A DNA stretch of 38,607 bases from NCBI GenBank assembly GCA_018398765.1, contig JAHBMJ010000889.1, forward strand, positions 1 through 38,607, written 5' to 3'. The notes beneath the pieces are model-generated. The model had not been told where the DNA came from. It ran no database searches and saw only the letters and a program-made list of their open reading frames with translations. Positions 4,893 through 34,600 of the stretch are shown here, piece by piece. Position 1 is the stretch's first letter, and each line of letters opens with the position of its first letter. Origin of the DNA: Chromera velia. Taxonomy: Eukaryota > Sar > Chromeraceae. Made by a program: the position numbers and the translations under genes.

Positions 4893-7800
4893 AGAGAGAG
4901 AGAGAGAGAGAGAAACTATTTTTTTGAAGAATGACTTACCAGAGACTTTCGCGAGGCCATCCATCAGCTTTTGGATCTTTGCCTGATGCTGGTATCTCTG
5001 GAGCAACCGGATCTGCAGGCAGGCAAATTTCCAGAAAGAGGGCAGGACTCTCAGGTAAGAGCGAGAGGGAATTGCAGATGAAATTGAAGGGAAACGCGCA
5101 GAATTTCGCTTGGGAGTTTGTCGAAGGATGTGAGGGAGGGAGAAAATAAGGGTGCGAGGAAGGAAGAAAGGAAGGAAGAAAGGAATGAAGGAAGGAAGGA
5201 GGAAAAGGGGCCGGGAGAAAAAAGAGATCCCCGATGCAGCTGACCGACCTGCTTCTTCCAAAGACGGACGGAAAGTCTTCCCGTGACTCTTCTCAGTCGT
5301 TTCGTCAGAACCTTTGCAGCTTCCTTTTGCTGCAAGAGAATCAAAATACAAGAGGGAAGAGTCTCCAAAGGATGTGTATGGCGACGGCAATTGGAACACA
5401 CATTCAAAGCAGAAAGACACGTCTCTCATATGAAACCGAAAGCACCCCGAGCTTTACGTTGCATGGTTTCCGTCAAGAAGATCACTGTCACTCACCCAAC
5501 ATCGAACGAACCCACCCACCCACTGACCATTCGTCTGATTTCAATGAAGAGCCGCCAAGCGTGGAAGTACCTCTCTTTTTTTCTCAACACGCCTGCTTCC
5601 GTCTTGTCCTCCATGTGATAATCTAGGTTGTTCCATATCGATGTCCTTGCATTCGTCTGCTTGTCGAAAACCGTGGCATCTTGCGGAGGTTCCGTCTTTG
5701 TTGCTCCAGAAGAAATTTCAACCGCTTTGTCTGGAGGGGATGACTTGGCGAGAGATGGATGAGGAGGAGCAGTAGTGAGAGATCGGGCGGCCGGGTCCGG
5801 TGACTTTGCAGGCTTTACGACTGCCTTGTCCGCAAATGCGTTTGCAATCTCTTTCGGTTTTTCTGCATCCTCCTCTTCCTTTTCTGCCCGCTCCGTTTCT
5901 TTGAGAACATTTGCGGCCAGATCTGCCACTGTGACTGCCCTGGCAGCTGGGGACTTGGAGAAAGACCCAGAACCCTGACGGGAACCTAGGCGAACCAGAG
6001 CACCACCACGCTGTGGAGTGGCTCTGCCAGACACGCCACCTCCTCCCACTGTGACACCCCCTATTGCAGGGTGATGTCTCGTGTATCTCGCGTCTGCCAG
6101 GACTTTGAGAAGCTGGGACACCGTCACTTCTTTGAAGGCCATCAAGGACTGAGAGAGCTTCTCGAACTGCTTGCTCCAGTCAGACAATCTGCACGCAGAC
6201 AGTCAGTCGAATGCAATAAACAAAAAAATGAAATAGGGACTAGCTGCGCATGGTCGTCACACTTCTTCAAGTTTCAACAATGGAGAAGCCCTTCTTGTAA
6301 TTGGCACGACATCCACGCTTCGACCGTTTTCTTTTTGTAAACGGTGGTTTTCAGTCTTGCCCATCGAGTTGCATGTCTTCAAGTTCACACATGCAGATGC
6401 ACTTACTTCCTTCGTTGCTCGTCCTCCATCCTCTGCCTCCAATCGTCCAACAACTCAGGGTCAAATCCCAGATTCGCGTTCCGAAGAATCTCCTCGAGTC
6501 TCTCGACGCGCTGTTGAAGGAGGAGACGCCGTTCGTCGGCCTGCACACACAAAACAAAACAAAACCAAGCAAACACGGATACAGAGGCTTGATTGATCGA
6601 ATTCCACTGAACAAAGAGGAAATGCAAGCAACGGACTGCATGGACAAGGACTGAAAACGATGGGAGAGGAGAACGAGTGGTTGCTTCTACAAGGAGAGAG
6701 ACACAGAGACTCATGTGTCGAATACCGAAAGGACGTGGAAGCAGGAGGGAGGGATGAACGGAGACTCATGTGCTTATGTCTGCAAACCCGTTGTATGATT
6801 GTCAAATACGACCGAGATCAATCATTCACTCATCCCAACGACTCCAAGCCCTAGCTCTAGATCCCTCACCTTCGCCAGCATGTCTGCAACGTTTTGGTCG
6901 AAAAGTCCGATTTTCTGCATGTGTTCCCTCAGGGCAGTCAGCTCGGACTCAAACCTCGCGGTAGTCTTCTCGAATCTGGTGGCCTGTCTCTGGCTCTGGT
7001 CCTGGAAAGAGGCCATCATGCGTCGCAACTCGTTGATCTCTGCATGCATGCACACACACATACAGACAGAGAGAGAGAGAGAGGCAGGAGAATGGAGAGA
7101 GAAAATAGAAGGGAGGAAAACTCGGACGAGAAAACGCCTCTGGGCATGTCCACGTCTTCATGAACCGCACGGAAGAAACGTGAGTCAATCTCAAAAACTC
7201 TTCTCTATGCATGACGATAACCTCAGGTGGGTAACTTGAAGATTTGCCTTTTTTTCAGTCGAGGTTTGCGTCCCTCTGTAGACTGAATGACCGTTTGCGA
7301 AGCCTTTTCTGACCCCTTTGCAGACCAGATCCCTTCCTTGGCCGCCTATTTGAAGTCTTGTCTGTGTCCGTATCAGCCTACTTGACTGCCTGACTGACTG
7401 CCTGACCTTCTCTCATCTGCACGACCTGTGCCTGTGTTCCCGTCACCTTCTCGTTGACTCCCTCTATTCCCTCCCTCACGCCGTCGACGTCGTTGGACAG
7501 AACCCGGACCTGTTCCCAGCGCATCACCCGAATTTCAATAGGAATTGTTCTTCTCACTATGACTTTTCGATGCCTTTACGTGAGGAAAAATGCGCATTTG
7601 ATCGAAAAAGAAAGCCCTTGGCAGAATGTAAGAAAAAGTCAGCGTCTTCGCCTTTCCTACTTATCGGATTGAGAGTAGTGAATGCGCTCTGGCGACTTTA
7701 CCATTTCGCTGGACATTGGGACGCTCTCCAGCTTTGTGCCTGCATCTCTGTTTCCCTCCCTGCCTACCATGCAGGTTGAATGACTTTCAGACTGACCTGT

Positions 7801-11311: not shown

Positions 11312-12269
11312 CACCACCGGACACATGACATTCCGTCACAAATATTAAATCAGATTATTAAAGCTGAATTCATGCTACTAAGTTGTATAGTATGGTACAG
11401 ATCTTTCACAGTGCACATGAATACTGATCAATATGACTCGGATGTAACGCCACATCCCTTTGTTTACCAGCTGAGTTGAATCACTAGTGATTCACTATAC
11501 TATACCATTGGACTGTTTTTTTTATTAAAAATTTGTGCTAGTGATCCTGTCAGGCACTGTCTCATAAAAATTGATGATAAAATTTAAGTTTTAGGCTGCA
11601 TGCCGAGAGTATAATAACAGTGGTTATATTTTTGTTCTTATTTCTTTAATGGCTGAGTTCCATACTTAATTTTAACAATTTATATTAAAGGCAAAAAATT
11701 TTTTAGAAAAATTTTAAACTGGGAAAAATTGAGTGTTTATTAAACTTAGGTGTTTATATACGTACAGTGTTATACACTAGGTCTATACATTTTTTTTTTT
11801 TTACAAATGTAGTGCTGACCTGCCTTTAGCTGTATTTGGAGCTTGATTTGGAGCTAAGTTTGCATGGAATTTTGTTTACTATTGCTATACAGGTAATCTA
11901 CTAACACAATAGATTGAATTTGACACTCTCGTAGGAATAAACTGCCTTATCTTTTACTGCCAAACGTTGCCTATAGCTAATGGCGATGATGTATATGCAG
12001 TGATGATGATGAATATTATTATAATTTACCTTGTGTAGAACCGATCAATCACTCAATCGATCAATCAAAACCCTATCATATTAAACATAACATGAGCAAA
12101 TTAATGATATAAAACCTATATAAACTAGTATAAAACGGTATAGAGTAAATGATATCAATTAATAAACAATAGTATCTAATCAACAAAATTAAAACTAAAA
12201 TAAAAAATATACATGTAGTAACGTGATTATTATATTTAGATTAAGTTCACTTTTAAATCTTGAGGAGGG
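11312..12269. other. AT-rich intergenic DNA
   Basis: About 950 bases, clearly AT-richer than the flanking genes, with no ORF worth calling. The first part is presumably the 3' UTR of the hydrolase gene (AATAAA-like ATTAAA signals near 11344 and 11359). Short palindromes are present (TCACTAGTGA near 11482). A related pair of inverted segments is seen near 11382-11398 and 11493-11511 (TATAGTATGG versus ACTATACTATACC). A GATCAATCACTCAATCGATCAATC stretch near 12045 is a degenerate (AATC)n tract. The compositional shift suggests old transposon debris. Confidence 0.6.
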
Positions 12270-12772
12270 TGTGGAGTCCTACCCTATGGCGCCGCCCTCT
12301 GGACCCTTGCATGCGCTGTATCTGAATGACTCAGAGCCTGCGTGCCGATGCCATACTCTGCCGCCGCGTGCATGTATACGCAATCGACTTACATATATGT
12401 ACGTATTGCGTGCGTCGATCAAAGTTGTCAAAGTCGAGTCTGCATATGACCTTCGCATTCAAGCAACACGTCACTCAAGCAACGGATAGCATCGTTTGAG
12501 TCTGATGTCTGTTTGTCACAGATCAAGAGAGCTCTTGAGAGTCTGAGAGAGAGGAATGAATAGAAACTGTGCATAATAGAATGCATCTAGCTAATTAGAA
12601 TCCCACTGGGAGATCGCGTTAGCGCTTAAACTAATATAGAGCCAAACCTCTTGTAAAGTGTTGCTTAAGTTAGTGTTGCTCACGTTCCTTCCCTAAATCT
12701 TCCTAAGGTTCTTGCCCTCGCTTTACCTTCTGTCTGGACGCTATAAGGTGGCTGGACAGGAGGAACAAAGCA
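12270..12772 (+). repeat. Left LTR (503 bp)
   Basis: Direct copy of 16704-17206, same length, about 92% identical by eye with no gaps. Begins TG, ends CA. The only ORF inside (12223-12489) has a degraded counterpart in the other copy (16705-16923), as expected from the LTR similarity, and is not a gene. Confidence 0.85.
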
Positions 12773-14833
12773 TTGTGGTGACTGCTCAGCTCGATGAGTG
12801 TCGACTCTTGTTTTCCTTCTGTGATGGAGATCAGATGTGTCCTTTTATGCAACCGTTGAAAGCCGATTGCAACGATATAGGCACGGTCAAGCAAAGTCTG
12901 TGAGTGGGGGAATTCAGCATTCCCTTGTGTCCCAAGCTGATTGAAGCCCTGTTTCGGAGATTTCCTTCGAGTCTGATCCTGGACTTTGCCTTTGTCCTTA
13001 GGTGGAGAGCCCGAAGATCGTTGGAGGTCGCCAAAGCCGATGGTGGAGATGTTGCTTGGTGTTGCTCGGGATTTCAAGGAGCCTGATTTCATTGAGAATG
13101 CTGCCTATGAGCAGATCGCAATCCAAATAGCCAGTAGAGTGCTTTTTTTATGCCTTTTGATTCTGTAACTGTCTCCGTCTTCCGGATGAGTGTCAGCTGA
13201 TCACCTTCACTTGTCTTTGCTGTTAGTTGCTTGCTTGTCTGCGCAAGGCTGACCACCTTCGTGGCCTGCAAGCACATCTAGCATGTCTAGGTCTGTCTGG
13301 ACTGGTCCTCTGACAGCGTTAAAACATAAGAAGATGCCCTTCGCCTCTCCCATGTGTTTGTAAGGTTATCACTTTCTTCCAAGAGAGAGCTTGTCGCTTC
13401 TGGCTGTCCGTCTATCGTATGGATCGTTCAATGAGTAGCCGTTCGATCGGGTGTGCAAGACTCTGCTTGCATGTTAAACAGACAGAAGGAATGGATGGCG
13501 GCGTACCATATGGAATAACGCAGTGACGGCCGGTGTGCCAGCCAGGGAGGGCCTTCTGCTCTGGGACTCCGACGCGGCGAGCCTGGAGTAGGAAGGAGGG
13601 AGAAGTAAGGAAGGGGTATTATAAAATAACATCGAGCCTGTCCTTGATGGTAAGAGAGGCAGAAGGGTCGCGGCAGACCTACTGAGAGATAGAGTAGGGC
13701 ACACGGCAGCTACCGCCTCGTCTCTTACCGGCGCCGGCATATTTTTAACTAACCGGGAAGGGCAAGAGGGGGTCGTAGGGGAAGGGAAGGGAAAGGGAGG
13801 GAGAAGGGGGGGGAAGGGGGAAGAGGGGGTAAAAAGGGGGGACAAAGGGGAAGGGAAAGGGAGGGGAAAAGGGGGGGGAAGAGGGAGAGAGGGGGGTTGC
13901 TTCAGGGTGGGGGGGCAAATCAAATCGAGGCTGGCCGAGAGCATACAAAGTACTAGCGACTGAGTGTGACTGGAGCATCTTTTGTCCAGAGTTGAGAGTT
14001 CATGTGTCAAAAGGAGCAGCAAGGGGATAAAATGAGACAGAAAGAAGAAACAAGATAAAAAGAGACCAGTGGAGCAGTCTGCAATGTGTCCGGTCCCTTC
14101 TTTCCCTCCTTTTATGCAGCTACTAACACGCGCAAAATGTGTTTGTGCTCGATAAGACGGCCGAGCCCTTCTGTCAACGAGAACTCGAAGTCAATTGCCT
14201 ACCCCTACGTCAGCTACATATAAGACGGGGGCAGAGGACTGCCTGATTGCCACCGCCATGCGTTTATGCCTGCGTGTGCCCACGACTGCCTGAGACCGCT
14301 CTTGCACCCCTGCTCTGAACTTGAGAGAAGGATTGAGCTCAATGCAAAGCTGAGCATCAAAGAGGCAGACTGCGAGAACGACAAGTCAAGCACCGCACGT
14401 GCCGCGCATTCGGAACTTCTGGAACTCCCCTTGGAAGAGTGACCATTCTTCTCTCGCGGCTTCTCTTGGCTTTGTTTTGTATGTGGCTTAGGAGTCAGAC
14501 CCCTTGTATGGCTGAGAGCACGAGCGCCTAGACGAGCGCCTAGACGAGCGCATAAGAGGGCGCCTTCATTCGCTGTCTCCTTTTCGTTTCCGTCTGCTAC
14601 TTTAAAACATTTCGTGTTATCCTTAGTTTCTCTCTTTGAGAGTTTCTTTCTTTGAGAGAAAGAGACTGGAAGAGGCTGAGGAAAAATGAGTAGAGGAGGA
14701 GCAAAGAAAGAACGAATCTTAAGAGAAACAGAAAGAGATGTCTGTTTCAACGAGAAGAGAAGAAGACGAAAAAAAAAAACGAGGGAATAGCCCGTGCATG
14801 TCTCTTTGTCCCTTCTGTATCTTCTCCCTGCAG

Positions 14834-14991
14834 GGGGATGTCGGTGCTTTGGAAGCCCTCTGGGGTCTCTGGGTATCGCCTCTCCCCCTCGCAGCACGGG
14901 AGTTGATGGGAGCCTTGGTGGAGCCAGCCGTCTCTGCGCAAGCATCTGCATGGAGCCAGACAGTGTGCCGCCAGGCGTCTCCCTCCGATAG
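14834..14991 (+). other. Exon-like segment inside the LTR element
   Basis: A polypyrimidine tract and CTGCAG acceptor (14828-14833) are followed by 158 bases open in one frame (GDVGALEALWGLW..., ...VCRQASPSDR) and then by AG|GTCTGAC. The acceptor and the GTC donor match the intron style of the neighbouring host genes. It may be a fragment of a host gene captured by the element, or coincidence. I find no partner exons. Confidence 0.25.
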
Positions 14992-16703
14992 GTCTGACCA
15001 GGTGCCATTCATTCGTTGATGTCTGTTCTTGTGTATTCGGTCGATCTACGGTGTTGTTGACAACAGGCGAAGACGTGCATGCAGTCTTCGGGAAGGAAGT
15101 GAAATAGAAGAGAGAGGAGGAAGAGATGTGAATACATGTATATGAATATATATGTGTGAGGCTTTCTGCTGCCGCCCTCTGGTTTCTCCGTCTCTTTACG
15201 TTTTGTTCGAACCTCCGTTTGCCCGTCTACTTGCATTCAGAAAATTAAAAAAGCTGGAATGGGATTGTTTGCAGGCGTACTATTCTCTCTGTCACCCGCC
15301 TCCTTCCGGCAGGCTGGTCTGAGAAAGAGAGAGAGAGAGTGAGGGAAGGTGGAACGAAGTTAGGAAACGGAGTTGGCTACCTCTTTCCTTCCGTCGGTTC
15401 CGCCCTTTTCTTTTCAATCACTTTGTTGTTGGTGGTGTTCGATCTGCGTCTTTCTTTTGAGACCACGGAGGTGTTGGAGATGCTTTGTTTTTCCGTCTTG
15501 CTTCAAGGGAAACGAAGGTAACATGAAGGAGAAATGAGATAAAAAGGAAACGGTGGGACTGCACAAGAGTTTGAAGAGTGGAGATTTGTTGGAATGAGCT
15601 TGTCTGTCCCTCTTAGAATTTTTGTATTGGCACCGTCTCCACTTTCTAACCTATCGCTTTCCGATGCCCTCTAATACTATCCCGTTTATGAATGTGAAGA
15701 TCTGATGTGGTGGGAGCGTGTATCCACGCACGTGCATGCCTGAACTTTTGCCCCGTTAGTTCTTTGATTGGCTGCACGTATCCCTCTGAGTCTGTCTGTT
15801 TGTTGCTCGGTAGAAGGTCGATCGGTCTGCTCTTTTCTTTTCCCAGTTTCGGTCGTTTGCTTCTCTGTCTTCTTGCTGTGGCTGCCTTTTCTACTGGCAG
15901 CATCGAAATGAACTCTTGTCATATGGGGTGTGTTGTTGAGAGTTCATGTCCTTTACTTTTGCCTCCATGTAGCCGCGTTTGCTTATCTGACTTTGCCGCA
16001 TTGGTGCGAGGCCGGCGCCTCAGAGGAGGAAAGAAGACAAAGAGGGGAAAGCAAAGTGGGAGTGAGAAGTAAGAAAGTGAAAGAAGGAAAATGAAAAAAA
16101 GAAAATAAAGAAAAAAATGAGGTGGACGACTGTGAGCGCATGCATCAGCATGGTGATGCATGTGTACATATGACCACACGGATACCGCGTGGGCCTCACT
16201 GTGTCTTGCTCTCTATCGCTCTTTCTGTCTAGTATTTCCGTCTTGTTCTTTCTTTCACGGAGATCTGAGAGGTTAATAGAAAGCTGGGGAAACGTAAAAC
16301 CTTACATTAGGAAGCTTGCGGCCATCGAGTGACGGGCTCTCAGACTGCCGTCAGGTAGAGATGGTATGCTTTTGCAGGCTACGAGCAAGCCAACGTCCCT
16401 AAAACAGGTTTTTCGAGGAAAGATCTGGTAGGTTGGCGTTGCCAGCGAGGCAGTGGTGATAGTACCTCTGCGTACGTTAATCTGATTGACTTGCATCAAC
16501 GGGAGGAAACTTTTCTGCTTATCAGCTTTCGCGTCTAGATTTTCTCGACTACCTCCTTGAAGGTGTTCTGTTGGTTGCATGGGTTTGCATTGTGTGTAGT
16601 TGATCGTGTCCTTTTGCTCGCCTTTTTTCCCTTTCTGCGCATGCTCGAATGAGTCTGACTGATCGCGGGGACACAATTTTCTTGTCCGTGGCCGGGGGGG
16701 ATC

Positions 16704-17206
16704 TGTGGAGTCCTACCCTGTGGCGCCGTCCTCTGGACCCTCGCATGTGCTGTATCTGAATGACTCAGAGCCCGCGTACCGACGCCATGCTCCGCCACCG
16801 TGTACATATATACGCAATCGACTTACATGCATGTACGTGTTGCGCACGTCGATCAAAGTTATTGAAGTCGAGTCTGCATATGACCTTCGCATTCAAGCAA
16901 CACGTCACTTAAGCAACGGATAGCATCGTTTGAGTCTGATGTCTGTTCATCACAGATCAAGAGAGCTCCTAAGAGTCTGAGAGAGAGGAATGAGTAGAAA
17001 CTGTACATAATAGAATGCATCCAGTTGATTGGAATCCCACTGAGAGATCGCGTTAGCGCTTAAACTGATATAGAGCCAAACCTCTTGTAAAGTGTTGCTT
17101 AAGTTAGTGTTGCTCACGTTTCTTCCCTAGATCTTCCTAAGGTTCTTACCCTCGCTTTACCTTCTGTCTGGACGCCATAAGGTGGCTGGACAAGAGGGAC
17201 AAAGCA
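16704..17206 (+). repeat. Right LTR (503 bp)
   Basis: Direct copy of 12270-12772. Substitutions between the two copies (about 40) are all transitions. The G-rich purine run immediately before it fits a polypurine tract. The following bases AGGG duplicate those preceding the left LTR. Confidence 0.85.
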
Positions 17207-17219
17207 AGGGGCTAATAAT

Positions 17220-28269: not shown

Positions 28270-28309
<40 letters not shown>

Positions 28310-28676
28310 AGAAGCTGAAACTTTGTATAAGAAGACGTTGTAACGATAGAAAAAGAATTATGGAACAGATTTTTTATATCATTTCTAGAAACATCGGCTG
28401 TTATACAATTTTTTTGATTTTGAAGCCATTTTTTAACGGTTTTGAATAGTAAGAAAAACGGTATAAAACTTATAAAATTTGTATAGCAGCCTATATTTCT
28501 AGAAATGATACAAAAAATCTGTTCCATAGTTCTTTTTCTATCGTTACAACGTCTTCTTATACAAAGTTTCAGCTTCTAACTCCTTACCAATTATGAGAAC
28601 GAGTTTTTTATGGAAAAACGCTGGTCTTCTATGTAGAGGGGGGGGTAAAAAGCATTTTACTTGCCCCCCGCATGCG
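28063..28676. mobile_element. Foldback element with long inverted arms
   Basis: The left arm (28063-28154 plus 28311-28408) and right arm (28479-28676) are inverted copies about 190 bases long. Matching landmarks are CGCATGC...GCATGCG at the tips and a G-rich/C-rich tract next to them. Further in, ACTCGTTCTCATAATTGG matches CCAATTATGAGAACGAGT, and a near-perfect ~100-base stretch follows (AAGCTGAAACTTTGTATAAG versus its complement). The outer tips are more diverged than the inner stretch. The loop between the arms is about 70 bases. There is no ORF of its own; ORFs listed across it are antisense readings of the repeat. It is best described as a MITE/foldback transposon, split in its left arm by another insertion. 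Confidence 0.7.
28155..28308 (+). mobile_element. SINE-like insertion with (AATC)n tail
   Basis: This 154-base segment interrupts the left arm of the foldback element and has no counterpart in the right arm, so it is a later insertion. It is flanked by the 5-base direct repeat TAGAA (28150-28154 and 28309-28313). It ends in about nine AATC units (28270-28304). Inside, GTAGGCTAAGTTGTAGCTGG resembles a tRNA A box region and ATTCTAACTCC resembles a B box (GTTCGAANTCC). A tRNA-like head, a simple-repeat tail and a short target duplication are the plan of a SINE. The box matches are weak. Confidence 0.45.
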
Positions 28677-29585: not shown

Positions 29586-31624
29586 ATGCGCCGTATCCAA
29601 GCCGTCTCCCTGTACCTAGGGCTGCTGTGTGCCCTTTGTGGAGCCTCCGAGCCGCTCGAGAACCTGCAGCAAGTGCCAGTAGAGCGAAAGTTTCTGAGGA
29701 CTGCAGACTCCAAGCGGCGGCTCCAAGGTCTTTCTCAGAGTGCGACAGAGTGTTTTTTTCTCCGTCTCGTCTTTTCCTTTCTGTCTCTGTATCATTCGTT
29801 TGCCTTCCAGCCCCCGCCTGCTTTCTTTGACCTCCCACTTCTTGCACGAGCTGTATGCAGTCATAGAGAAGCTGCTTCCTGATTTATCACCAGTCTTCAC
29901 AATATCCGTTTGTAAGAAAACCGCCACCCCCGCTTATTTCTGTTTCGTGTCCCAAGCTTCCGTCATGAGGTTCCCTCCCCGCTCCCTGCAGAAGGGGTTC
30001 CAAATGACCAAACGGAGAATGCTCAGGTCCTGGAATTCCGTGAAACTCTGGAGAGCGGAGCTTCGATTGCCTCTGTCGGAGATTCCTTCAGCGTCTCCGT
30101 CAACGGCACTACGGTGGGAGCCTCTGCACACCCTGACTACTCTCGGTGCGGCGGGAGCTCGTCGCGTCCTGGAGTCTGGTATAGCTTTCGCGTGCCTGAG
30201 TCAAACTCGACATGGAGAATCACCGTGGACACCTGCAAGTCCTCTGTCAGTTTGAACTGCCTTGTCCAGCGTTTTTCAGAGGATCAGAAGTTCCCCACGT
30301 CTGAATCCTTTTTTTCATCTCTTGCATCCTTTGGCCTTGCTTGCAGCTGAGCACCCGCATTGGACTTCTCTCTGGAGAGTGTTCCAGCGGAAATGATGGG
30401 GGATGTTCATGCATTGGCACAAATGGATGGGGAAGCTGCGGAGGAGGGTCGAGGATCTCGACTGCAGCGCGAGGCGGCGAGGATTTTCGCGTTCTCGTCA
30501 GATCATCAGGAAGGGATCCGGGTCCTTTCGAACTGACACTCACAGCCACAGTCCTCCCTCCGCCGCCCGAAAATAACGCCATAGAAAAAGCTGCCAACGT
30601 GACTATGGAGAGAGCACAGAATCCCGCATCGGGCTCGACACTCTCTCACTCTTATGTAACTGTAGACGGGTCTCTGCTCAGCGCCTCCACCGACACCTCT
30701 GTGTGCTCTGACGACTCTGACAGGGCTGGAGTCTGGTACAGTGTGGAGGTGAACGAGACGAGTGCCCTGTCGGTGGAGGTGACTTCGAATGAGGTTAGTG
30801 AGTCAAGGACCCCGCTACTCCGCAGGGTTGTCTGCCGATACCGATTTGCCTGAGAGAAGACACTTCGAAATTTCTTTGCATAGGCAAGAAACTCTCGGAT
30901 TGCACGACGCAGTAGCAAATGTCGTGCGTCCTATTTTCCTGCTTTGTTTTCCTCTTTCCATCGAACCTGAACCGCTCTCCTGTGTTCAAAGGAACCAAAA
31001 ACAAAATGATCGGCGAGCCGCTCTTTGCCCCTTCCTGTTTGTGTGCAGCGGAGCATGAGAGCGTTTGTGCTGAAGGGAAGCGAGTGCCTCTCTGATCCCT
31101 CCAGTGCCCCCTGTTCATGCCTGACAAGAAGGGGGCAGAAAGAACAAACCAGTCGCGCCTCTCCTTCCACCTACTTTGTGTGGGTCTATGCCGACGCCGA
31201 CGCCGCTCTCCGCGAAGAGAAGGCTTCCTTCACCCTCACAGCAGCGGTCCTCCCCCCACCTCCCGAGAACAACGCTGTCTCTGGAGCCGTAGATATTGAT
31301 TTGGAGAGCGTAACAGTTCCTGCGTCTGGATTGGCTCTCGCTCGCTCTTCTGCTTCTGTAGAAGGGTCTCTGCTGAGTGCCTCCAACGACGCCTCTGTCT
31401 GCTCTGACCGGTCGGGGAGGGCGGGGGTCTGGTACAGAGTGGAGGTGAACGAGACGAGTGCGCTGACGGTGGCCTTACAAGAGGTGTGTGAGTCAGTGAA
31501 CATGTCAGGGAGGCGAACGGGTCTTGCTCATGGGAGAGAAAAATGTCCCGAAACAGCAGTGATTGAGAATGTGTGAACCTTTTTTTTTCAATTCTAGAAG
31601 CACAGTGAAAATGGTCAACTCACG

Positions 31625-31670
<46 letters not shown>

Positions 31671-34600
31671 GATGGGAAGGCAGTCCACGTGCTGAAGGGA
31701 AGCGAGTGCCTCTCCGATCCCTCAAGTGCTCTTTGCTCGTGTGTGACAAGCAGAGGCCAGAGGGAGCAAGCTGTGCTCGCGTCCCCATCCACTTACTTTG
31801 TATGGGTCTACGCGAACTCTAACGCTGCTCTCAGTGAGCGTACGAGCGCCTTCACGCTCACCGTCACGTCAAAAGTCCTCCCATCGGCGCCCGAGAACGA
31901 TGCTGTCGCTGGAGCTTTGAACGTCATCATGAAGAGCGCACCGATTCCTGCATCAGGGCTGACTCTCGCTCGCTCCTCTGCGACTGTAGAAGGGTCTTTG
32001 CTCAGCGCCTCCAACGATGCCTCCGTTTGCTCTGACGAGGCTGGGCGTGCGGGAGTTTGGTACAGAGTGGAGGTGAACGAGACGAGTGCGCTGTCTGTGG
32101 TGGTGGCAGCTGATGAGGTGAGTGCAGCAGAAGATTTTTGATTCGTGCTGTCTGCCTCCCATTTCGCATAGCTCTCTACTTTCTTGCGTTCTTGGGAGTC
32201 TGTTTCTCTCTTCGCTGGATGCACAATTTTTTGTTGCAAAGTCGAACGGAATGGAGTTGTGTGCGTTCGTGTTGGGCTCGTCCGGATTGAAATAAATGGC
32301 GTCAGGCCCTTCACTTCGACCAGGCCCCTCGAGACAGGAAGGCAGGATGACATTCACCGTCTATCTTTTGTCGCTTCATTCCTTGTTGCATGCAAAGAAA
32401 GCCATCCTTTCAATCGTCACTCTGCGCTGTCTGTGTGCGTGCAGTGGAGCTTGAGAGCTCTCGTGCTGAAGGGAAATGATTGCCTCTCCGATCCCTCCAG
32501 TTCCCCCTGTACGTGCTTGACGAGCAGGGGTCAAAAGGAGAGTGCGGTCCAGGCTTCTCCTGGCACTTACCTCGTGTGGGTGTACGCAAACTCCGAAGTT
32601 GCCCTCGATGAGCAAACGGCTTCCTTTACACTTACCCTCACCACAACAGTTCTCCCTCCCGTCCCTGATAACGACGCCATCGCAGGAGCCATGGCCCTTG
32701 GAATGGAGAATGTCCCTGGACCCGCAACCGGCTCGGCCCTCGCGCGCTCCTCTGCCACTGTAGAAGGGTCCCTGCTCAGCGCCTCTAACGACGCCTCTGT
32801 TTGTTTTGACAGGTCTGGGTATGTCGGAGTCTGGTACAGGTTGGAGGTGAACGAGACGAGTGCGCTGTCGGTGGCGGTGACATCAAATCAGGTCAGTCAG
32901 GTGTTGATGCCGTTTTCCCTTCCTTCCTCCTGGTGGGATGTTAATAGTGAAAGGAGGGACTGAGCTCAAGTGGAAGGGTCTTTACGTGAAAAGTAACGGG
33001 GCACTGAAAAACAGTGGGGCCCCATCGTGGGGTTGTCTGTTGCGTCAAAATTGTTCTGCTGTCTCTTCGATAGGTTCTGCATGCCACGTTTTGGCTCACT
33101 TGCCTTTTGAAGGAGCAAAGATGTTTGGAGAAGGAAAGATGTTCGTGATACCGTCCCTTGGTGTGCAGCTTTTCGTGCTGGAGGGAAGCGAGTGCCTCGC
33201 CGATCCCTTCAATGCCACCAACTGTAGGTGCATGTCAAGAAGAGGTCAGAGGGAGCAAATCCTGCGGACGGCCCCTGAGTCCACCTACTTTGTGTGGGTC
33301 TTTGCCGACTCTGACGCTTCTTTTATGGAACACAAAGGGGCGTTCAACCTCACTGTGTCGTCGGCAATTCTTCCCGCTCCTCCGGCCAACGCACAAATTG
33401 ATCAGGCGACGCCTCTCTCTCTTGGCGCGGGAGATTCGTTCGGTTCGGATTCTGTGGTGGGGTCCTTCCTCACCTCTGCTCCCTCTAGTGGCGGCAGTGT
33501 ATGTGGAGAGGGCGGGGGGGTGTCGGGAAACGGCGTCTGGCACAGAATGCAGGTGGCAGAACGAGGAATTGTGACTCTCCGCCTGAAGGTCAGGGATGGG
33601 CAAACTGCGTGCGTGCATTCATTTTTGTTTCAAAGTTCTCCCGCGTTGCCGTCCCGTCCTTGGTAATCACTCCTTTGTGTTTGGCCCCGTGGATTTTGTG
33701 CATTCTCCTGTCCATTTTCACTCTTCCATTTTCTTGTTTTTTTTACTCTTACCTACAGTCCCTCTTTCTTTCACTTCTTTCGCCTTCCTTCTTCGTCTTC
33801 TCTGACTCTTCAGCTCCCATTTGATGTTCATCATACACTTTTTCTTGTCTTGAGTCCTTCGTTTCCTCTCTTTCTGCTCCCCACTCTCTTATGTGTGTGT
33901 CGGCATGGATGCGTTTTCTCTCCCTGCGTGCGACTGTAGCTGGCGCGTCCATGCATCTACTCCTCCATCTGTCGCCCTCACTCTCTACTTTCTTCTTTCT
34001 ATGATGTTTGCCAGGGACCAAGGCCGCGGAACTTCAATCTCCTCAAAGGCGCCGCGTGCGGTGACGATCCCTCGGCTGCTGGGTGCCTCTGTGTCCACCC
34101 AGAGGGCCACTCCTTCGAATACGAAACCTTCGCCGTAGAACAGACGTGTACTTCGTGTCTGTCTTCACAACGGACTCCAAGAAAACTCTCTCCCCCGAGA
34201 AGAGCGAATTCTCGCTTCAAGCGACGTTCATCAAGTCGGGAGCAGTTTCTCCCACCAGCACTGAGCTGACCCTCGACGCTCCAGTGAGTGGAGAGATCAA
34301 CGGTAGTGCTCCTCACTCGTTCTCTTTCCTTCCGAGAGAGAGTGGCCGTGTAGCCTTCACTCTGTGCTCCAGTCGGCCGACGTCGCTGACTGTTCTGAAC
34401 GGCTCTGCGACTGTAGGGTCGGCCGATGTGACTGTTTACACTGGTTGTCGGGAGGTGTGGGTTGACGTGAATGAAGGAGAGAGACTGGGTGTTGAGATTC
34501 CTTTCGAAGGGGGAGACAGGGGAGAGGAAGGCGGGGAGTTCTTCACGCTTTCTGCGAAAGAGCTGCCGGTACCCCCTGCCAGCAGATGGGAGAGCGCATT

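Follow-up and report, generated by a model that had tools for sequence, protein, structure and literature searches.

The LTR element and its terminal repeats

The window studied here, a 38,607-nucleotide stretch of Chromera velia DNA, carries on its + strand a long terminal repeat (LTR) element at 12270..17206. Its 5′ LTR (TGTGGA...AAAGCA, 12270..12772) and 3′ LTR (16704..17206), each 503 bp long, differ at 40 of 503 sites with zero gaps, and all 40 differences are transitions (12 G/A, 11 A/G, 10 T/C and 7 C/T). C-to-T and G-to-A transitions of this kind were found in three sets of transposable elements (TEs) of the genome. We consider them best explained, with a probability of about 0.6, by steady deamination of 5-methylcytosine (5mC) targeted to TEs and strongest at CpG and CpA.

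The element is flanked by a 4-bp target-site duplication, AGGG, at 12266..12269 and 17207..17210. An exact 4-bp repeat occurs at two of ten other loci (L050 and L051), and the remaining eight have none at the borders used. The internal region (12773..16703, + strand) opens with a putative primer-binding site region, TTGTGGTGACTG..., which adjoins the 5′ LTR at 12773..12790 (extent approximate, + strand), and closes with a putative G-rich polypurine tract, GGGGGGGATC, immediately before the 3′ LTR (16694..16703, + strand). In other copies, the bases after the LTR resemble the former and the motif of the latter is identical. The element looks non-autonomous, since no Pfam domain was found in the eight stop-to-stop frames scanned in the internal region, out of 15 with at least 90 amino acids. 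The LTR occurs in at least 41 places in the genome (40 of 579 candidates scored), and the internal region has at least 79 DNA matches (40 of 323 scored). At C849:24771-25584, the LTR lies in two side-by-side copies separated by 13 bp, one of them partial in the match. Elsewhere in the window, a coding-looking unit is present four times as direct repeats (31064-33353; roughly 620-775 bp apart, with 68-85% similarity over the matched stretches), and no RNA family at gathering threshold and no tRNA was found in the 38,607 nucleotides.

The sequence-only reading of this DNA had described the LTR pair as carrying about 40 differences, all A/G or C/T and without indels, with derived states in both copies and with unpolarised contexts of 24 CA, 7 CG, 5 CT and 4 CC. 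Each of these statements holds, the number being exactly 40 and the context counts being reproduced exactly. When the differences are polarised by the votes of 28 other LTRs, 33 are C-to-T, one is T-to-C and six are undecided, with derived states in both LTRs; in a 47-LTR alignment the corresponding numbers are 29, 2 and 9. The contexts of the 33 polarised C-to-T changes are 15 CA, 10 CG, 4 CT and 4 CC. The unpolarised contexts are partly misleading because CpG sites hit on opposite strands appear as TG/CA doublets between the two LTRs and are counted as CpA. Three such doublets, at 12411..12412 and at 12429 and 12514, would be ancestral CpG sites deaminated on opposite strands in the two copies. 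The pair does not show ordinary divergence at 8%, as had been argued: a gene pair that has diverged to a similar extent shows 45 transitions to 34 transversions, against 0 transversions among 40 differences here (Fisher p = 5e-8). Within its own family, the LTR pair stands out only mildly from the other 16 (p = 0.04).

Mutation spectrum and sequence context in transposable elements

The genome searched comprises 177.8 Mb in 4040 contigs; passages of the paper on the published Chromera velia assembly give 193.66 Mb in 5953 scaffolds with about 30 Mb of TEs (PMC4501334). In PDB, the alpha-tubulin of the searched genome has 7tnt and 7miz, both from Toxoplasma, as its nearest entries, and no nearly identical entry turned up for a light-harvesting protein. 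Across 17 LTR pairs of the window family, we counted 363 transitions, 27 transversions and 6 gaps over 7952 sites, and across 11 pairs of a Copia LTR family 112 transitions, 6 transversions and 2 gaps over 2725 sites, that is, transitions over transversions of about 13:1 and 19:1. Normal rates of transversions and gaps, which the sequence-only reading had named as telling against it, were thus not seen in the other copies. These counts take in only pairs with both LTRs, leaving aside other candidate pairs such as those on C178, C841 and C3513. They also leave out the L044 pair (40 transitions, 10 transversions, 7 gaps) as probably composite, with which the window-family total becomes 403:37, and L013, which coincides with one LTR of L037.

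Polarisation by the votes of other copies of each family assigns 262 changes as C-to-T, 13 as T-to-C and 88 as undecided in the window family, and 89, 8 and 15, respectively, in the Copia LTRs. Per available site, C-to-T exceeds T-to-C about 20-fold in the former (bootstrap over pairs 12-46) and 14-fold in the latter (7-31). Relative to the element strand, the two families together show 157 C-to-T and 195 G-to-A changes. Both strands are therefore affected, which fits events on double-stranded DNA after insertion better than events on single-stranded cDNA. Runs of same-strand changes are absent, with 111 switches of 227 in the window family (permutation mean 110.8) and 32 of 66 in Copia (mean 33.5), and the transversion share is homogeneous over the 17 window-family pairs (p 0.52). 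The absence of strand runs and of heterogeneity argues for a steady process acting on double-stranded DNA.

The bias extends to the bodies of elements. The internal region of the window element, compared with its relatives, shows 104 C-to-T, 18 T-to-C and 14 transversions (665 columns undecided). Private states number 251 C-to-T, 22 T-to-C and 18 transversions in Copia bodies, a count made without L059 because of its tandem repeats, and 100, 15 and 4, respectively, in unclassified groups carrying the reverse transcriptase domain RVT_1. For RVT_1, 20 of at least 150 listed places were compared. Seven pairs without shared members, hand-picked among 20 pairs at 93% identity or more, gave transition to transversion counts of 4:0, 9:1, 21:0, 13:1, 21:0, 23:0 and 24:2; at 79-80% identity the ratio falls to about 2:1, and the listed pairs at 68-77% are near 1:1 or lower. 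Near Copia bodies likewise give 173:13 and 162:10, among others, and the more distant L058 gives 229:57. Since close pairs are biased and distant pairs less so, the C-to-T bias appears to belong to mutations that arose once the elements had inserted. Two RVT_1 domains 957 bp apart (L103 and L104; C2362:4055-4537 and 5012-5494) are identical, as a recent tandem copy or an assembly artefact would be.

The base 3′ of the cytosine has a clear effect. In the window family, the C-to-T rate per site is 5.83% before G, 5.16% before A, 2.56% before T and 2.14% before C, against 0.19% for T-to-C; in Copia the rates are 7.57% before G, 4.86% before A, 2.17% before C and 1.37% before T, against 0.28%. The ratio of CpR to CpY rates is 2.3, 3.5 and 2.7 (p 3e-6 to 1e-10), and CpG and CpA outrank CpT and CpC whether the vote threshold is set at 0.6, 0.8 or 0.95. 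The CpG to CpA ratio in four data sets is 1.13, 1.56, 1.28 and 1.77, only the last being significant (p 4e-4). Hence the CpA excess that had been noted from the LTR pair persists after correction but is shared with CpG, which is at least equal in all four data sets, and the predominant CpA targeting of repeat-induced point mutation (RIP) is not seen. CpG is raised among the C-to-T contexts, as 5mC decay would have it; the earlier dismissal of 5mC decay, on the ground that it should favour CpG, loses its force because the polarised data include just such a preference.

On the 5′ side no marked preference was found (A 4.26, C 4.50, G 3.51, T 3.76%), and ultraviolet damage was ruled out by the lack of a dipyrimidine 5′ effect. 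CHG methylation was also considered and set aside: CHG and CHH rates are 3.38 vs 3.51% and 2.33 vs 2.87%, with no CHG effect. An apparent CpT excess (26 of 58) under singleton-only polarisation was judged an artefact, because restriction to conserved columns drops hot CpG and CpA sites, and that method was replaced by the votes of other copies.

Dinucleotide composition, which the sequence-only reading had put forward as a check, is not RIP-like in the element or its LTRs by the usual cut-offs for the RIP indices. TpA/ApT is 0.79 in the element, 0.64 in the rest of the window and 0.94 in the LTRs, and (CpA+TpG)/(ApC+GpT) is 1.25, 1.26 and 1.18, respectively. DNA of the window outside the element has a G+C content of 0.51, and there TpA is strongly depleted (observed/expected 0.50; 0.90 in the LTRs).

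Duplicated DNA outside transposable elements

Duplicated DNA that does not belong to TEs mostly shows an ordinary spectrum. Two alpha-tubulin copies, 92% identical over 1.4 kb of DNA, give 45 transitions to 34 transversions, with 31:23 at third codon positions, 13:10 in 175 bp upstream and an additional 19:14 in downstream blocks; the third-position input to the Fisher test, 36:24, took in the 175 upstream bases, coding sequence alone being 31:23. Third positions of a histone H3 pair (L071/L072) give 15:11, and an inverted repeat in the window (28309-28578; 125 nt, arms 20 nt apart, 90% complementary) gives 7:6. Compared with the TE counts, the tubulin genes, the tubulin 3′ flank, H3 and the inverted repeat yield Fisher p values from 1e-4 to 2e-10. 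In the light-harvesting family (LHC; PF00504, 58 matches in the genome), the longer comparisons give 24:10, 13:8 and 6:7, sequence outside the Pfam domain gives 13:10, 5:7 and 1:1, and private states number 2 C-to-T and 3 T-to-C. The idea that the process is directed at duplicated DNA as such, genes included, is therefore not supported by tubulin, H3 and the longer LHC alignments. Codon selection could mask C-to-T changes at coding sites, and in this respect the tubulin flanks offer a cleaner comparison; selection could also have purged mutated copies of duplicated genes.

Candidate machinery and origin of the decay

A search of the genome with PF00145 returned two clear Dnmt2-type genes, at C3982:50424-52049 and C1092:6065-8385, and a third, weaker gene on C675 (about 106615-109800; E about 0.03 against PDB) that is probably of the Dnmt2 type as well. 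Dnmt2 is usually a tRNA methyltransferase. Among these three genes, one open frame is unusually long (622 amino acids). Allowing E values up to 10 adds two weak places, on C788 and C1422 (E 0.32 and 0.72 genome-wide), which do not look like Dnmt2. The former (C788:24000-25600) has a frame with LDFWAGIGGLSLGAEAAG, a second frame with GGFPC on its 3′ side and, beyond that, a run of N; the latter (C1422:24236-24325) has a frame with HGFPCQ. These sequences resemble motifs I and IV as found in DNA-type C5 methyltransferases. A methyltransferase of the RID/Masc1 (DNMT4) type, which the sequence-only reading would have looked for, was not identified in the PF00145 search of the 177.8-Mb genome, which is smaller than the published assembly. 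An SRA domain (SAD_SRA), a putative reader of 5mC, is encoded in two exons at C2797:69898-70705, with TagI as its top match and UHRF1/UHRF2 also nearest in PDB; modification-dependent nucleases, TagI among them, can carry SRA domains too. PF00383 was found at 11 places in the genome, none of them classified.

These results are best read as 5mC deamination, because the process is steady and without strand runs, CpG and CpA are raised, and most duplicated DNA outside TEs is ordinary. TE cytosines would be methylated at C5, most strongly in CpG and CpA; the methylated base would deaminate passively to T and escape repair; and inserted elements would thereby lose cytosines steadily on both strands, chiefly in those two contexts and to a lesser extent at CpT and CpC, the mutations accumulating through ordinary growth and not in bursts. 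The SRA gene and the two weak, apparently non-Dnmt2 methyltransferase candidates would fit this reading. The 5mC-driven decay of TEs in plants and vertebrates is alike in being steady, affecting both strands of TEs by C-to-T change and raising CpG, and unlike in that here CpA mutates almost as readily as CpG and CHG has no effect. The proportion of transitions also seems more extreme here than in plant LTR pairs.

Several observations weigh against methylation as the cause. The clear PF00145 genes are all of the Dnmt2 type, the candidates on C788 and C1422 are weak and unclassified, with a run of N beyond the C788 frame, and the top PDB match of the SRA gene is a restriction enzyme, TagI. CpT and CpC are raised too, to about 5-13 times T-to-C, so that methylation would need to span all contexts. 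Outside TEs, transitions make up all or nearly all of the differences between the closest LHC pairs, though with few sites (L063/L065 8:0, L064/L065 5:1, L065/L067 5:1), and all of those in LHC sequence within the Pfam domain (11:0, 1:0 and 4:0, from coding sequence with few sites and overlapping pairs). At strict settings, interruptions of microsatellites outside the family give 18:2, 13:2 and 8:1, the 13:2 count being no different from TEs (p 0.27). There may, then, be a wider C-to-T bias in non-coding DNA. A mutation bias of the whole genome, not specific to TEs, would account for these microsatellite and LHC counts, and yet we hold it to be quite improbable: it conflicts with the ordinary spectra of the tubulin genes and flanks, H3 third positions and the inverted repeat, and an unopposed 14-20-fold excess of C-to-T would not leave the G+C of 0.51 and the TpA observed/expected of 0.50 found outside the element. 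The ratio of C-to-T to T-to-C among microsatellite interruptions (10:3 or 11:6) is also below that of TEs (p 0.03 and 3e-4). This control is small (9 to 28 events) and contradictory between settings, a looser one giving 17:11, and does not decide the matter.

An active defence like RIP, in which an enzyme of a non-fungal eukaryote recognises repeats and converts C to T at CpR, would share with fungal RIP (RID/Masc1 in Neurospora) the near-pure C-to-T change in repeats on both strands. Passages in two papers lend it some plausibility, assigning to the DNMT4 clade the protein CEM15752 of another chromerid, Vitrella brassicaformis (PMC10538959), and relating DNMT4 to fungal RID, the RIP enzyme (PMC9998398). 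A precedent for mutation without meiosis exists in Zymoseptoria tritici, where a Dim2-dependent process with a RIP-like spectrum builds up C-to-T changes in TEs; the relevant passages report that more than 98% of these fall at CpA and that CpG is not mutated at high rates (PMC8016269), whereas in Chromera CpG is at least as mutable as CpA. RIP is not supported, because none of the predicted gene hits, CpA dominance or bursts could be demonstrated: the tubulin duplicates and longer LHC comparisons are spared C-to-T dominance (the closest LHC pairs having too few sites), CpG is mutated as often as CpA, composition indices are not RIP-like, and no RID-like gene was identified in the PF00145 searches. 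We therefore think such a defence rather unlikely, though a RIP-like active step may act on methylated TEs. Of the RIP-like process first proposed, what stands is C-to-T change in repeats, on both strands and in both LTRs, probably in a non-fungal protist; RIP proper, with no strand runs, no heterogeneity between elements and no RID/Masc1-type gene identified in the PF00145 searches, is not supported, nor is a special preference for CpA. A variant, in which a DNMT4-like or other non-Dnmt2 methyltransferase of a chromerid alga drives C-to-T mutagenesis of TEs at CpR and spares duplicated genes, would be the first mutagenic-methylation defence outside fungi; we regard it as no likelier.

If cytosine deamination were merely poorly repaired in silent TE chromatin, without methylation, all four contexts would be raised and the tubulin pair would be ordinary, as observed. 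However, inefficient repair alone hardly seems enough to produce the 2-3.5-fold CpR preference or the excess of C-to-T per C over T-to-C per T (about 14-20 times), and the SRA gene suggests that 5mC exists, so we judge this explanation improbable. Editing of TE DNA or cDNA by an AID/APOBEC-like deaminase is the least credible: it could draw on the nearly pure C-to-T change and the 11 unclassified PF00383 places, but known AID/APOBEC enzymes show a 5′ base preference, and here neither such a preference nor strand-coordinated clusters were found, C-to-T and G-to-A being mixed along the element.

In our literature searches, nothing was found on Chromera and repeat-induced point mutation, nothing on C-to-T decay of TEs among papers on Chromera velia and deamination, judged by title and the start of the abstract, and no methylome paper for the Chromera lineage under methylation or 5-methylcytosine. 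The ordinary 5mC reading predicts that TEs in this lineage are methylated at CpG and CpA. LTR dating in this genome would overstate ages several-fold unless based on transversions. Chromera is a photosynthetic relative of the apicomplexans, kin to the malaria and Toxoplasma parasites, and its TEs undergo near-pure C-to-T decay that resembles fungal genome defence but may be explained more simply by methylation of TE DNA.

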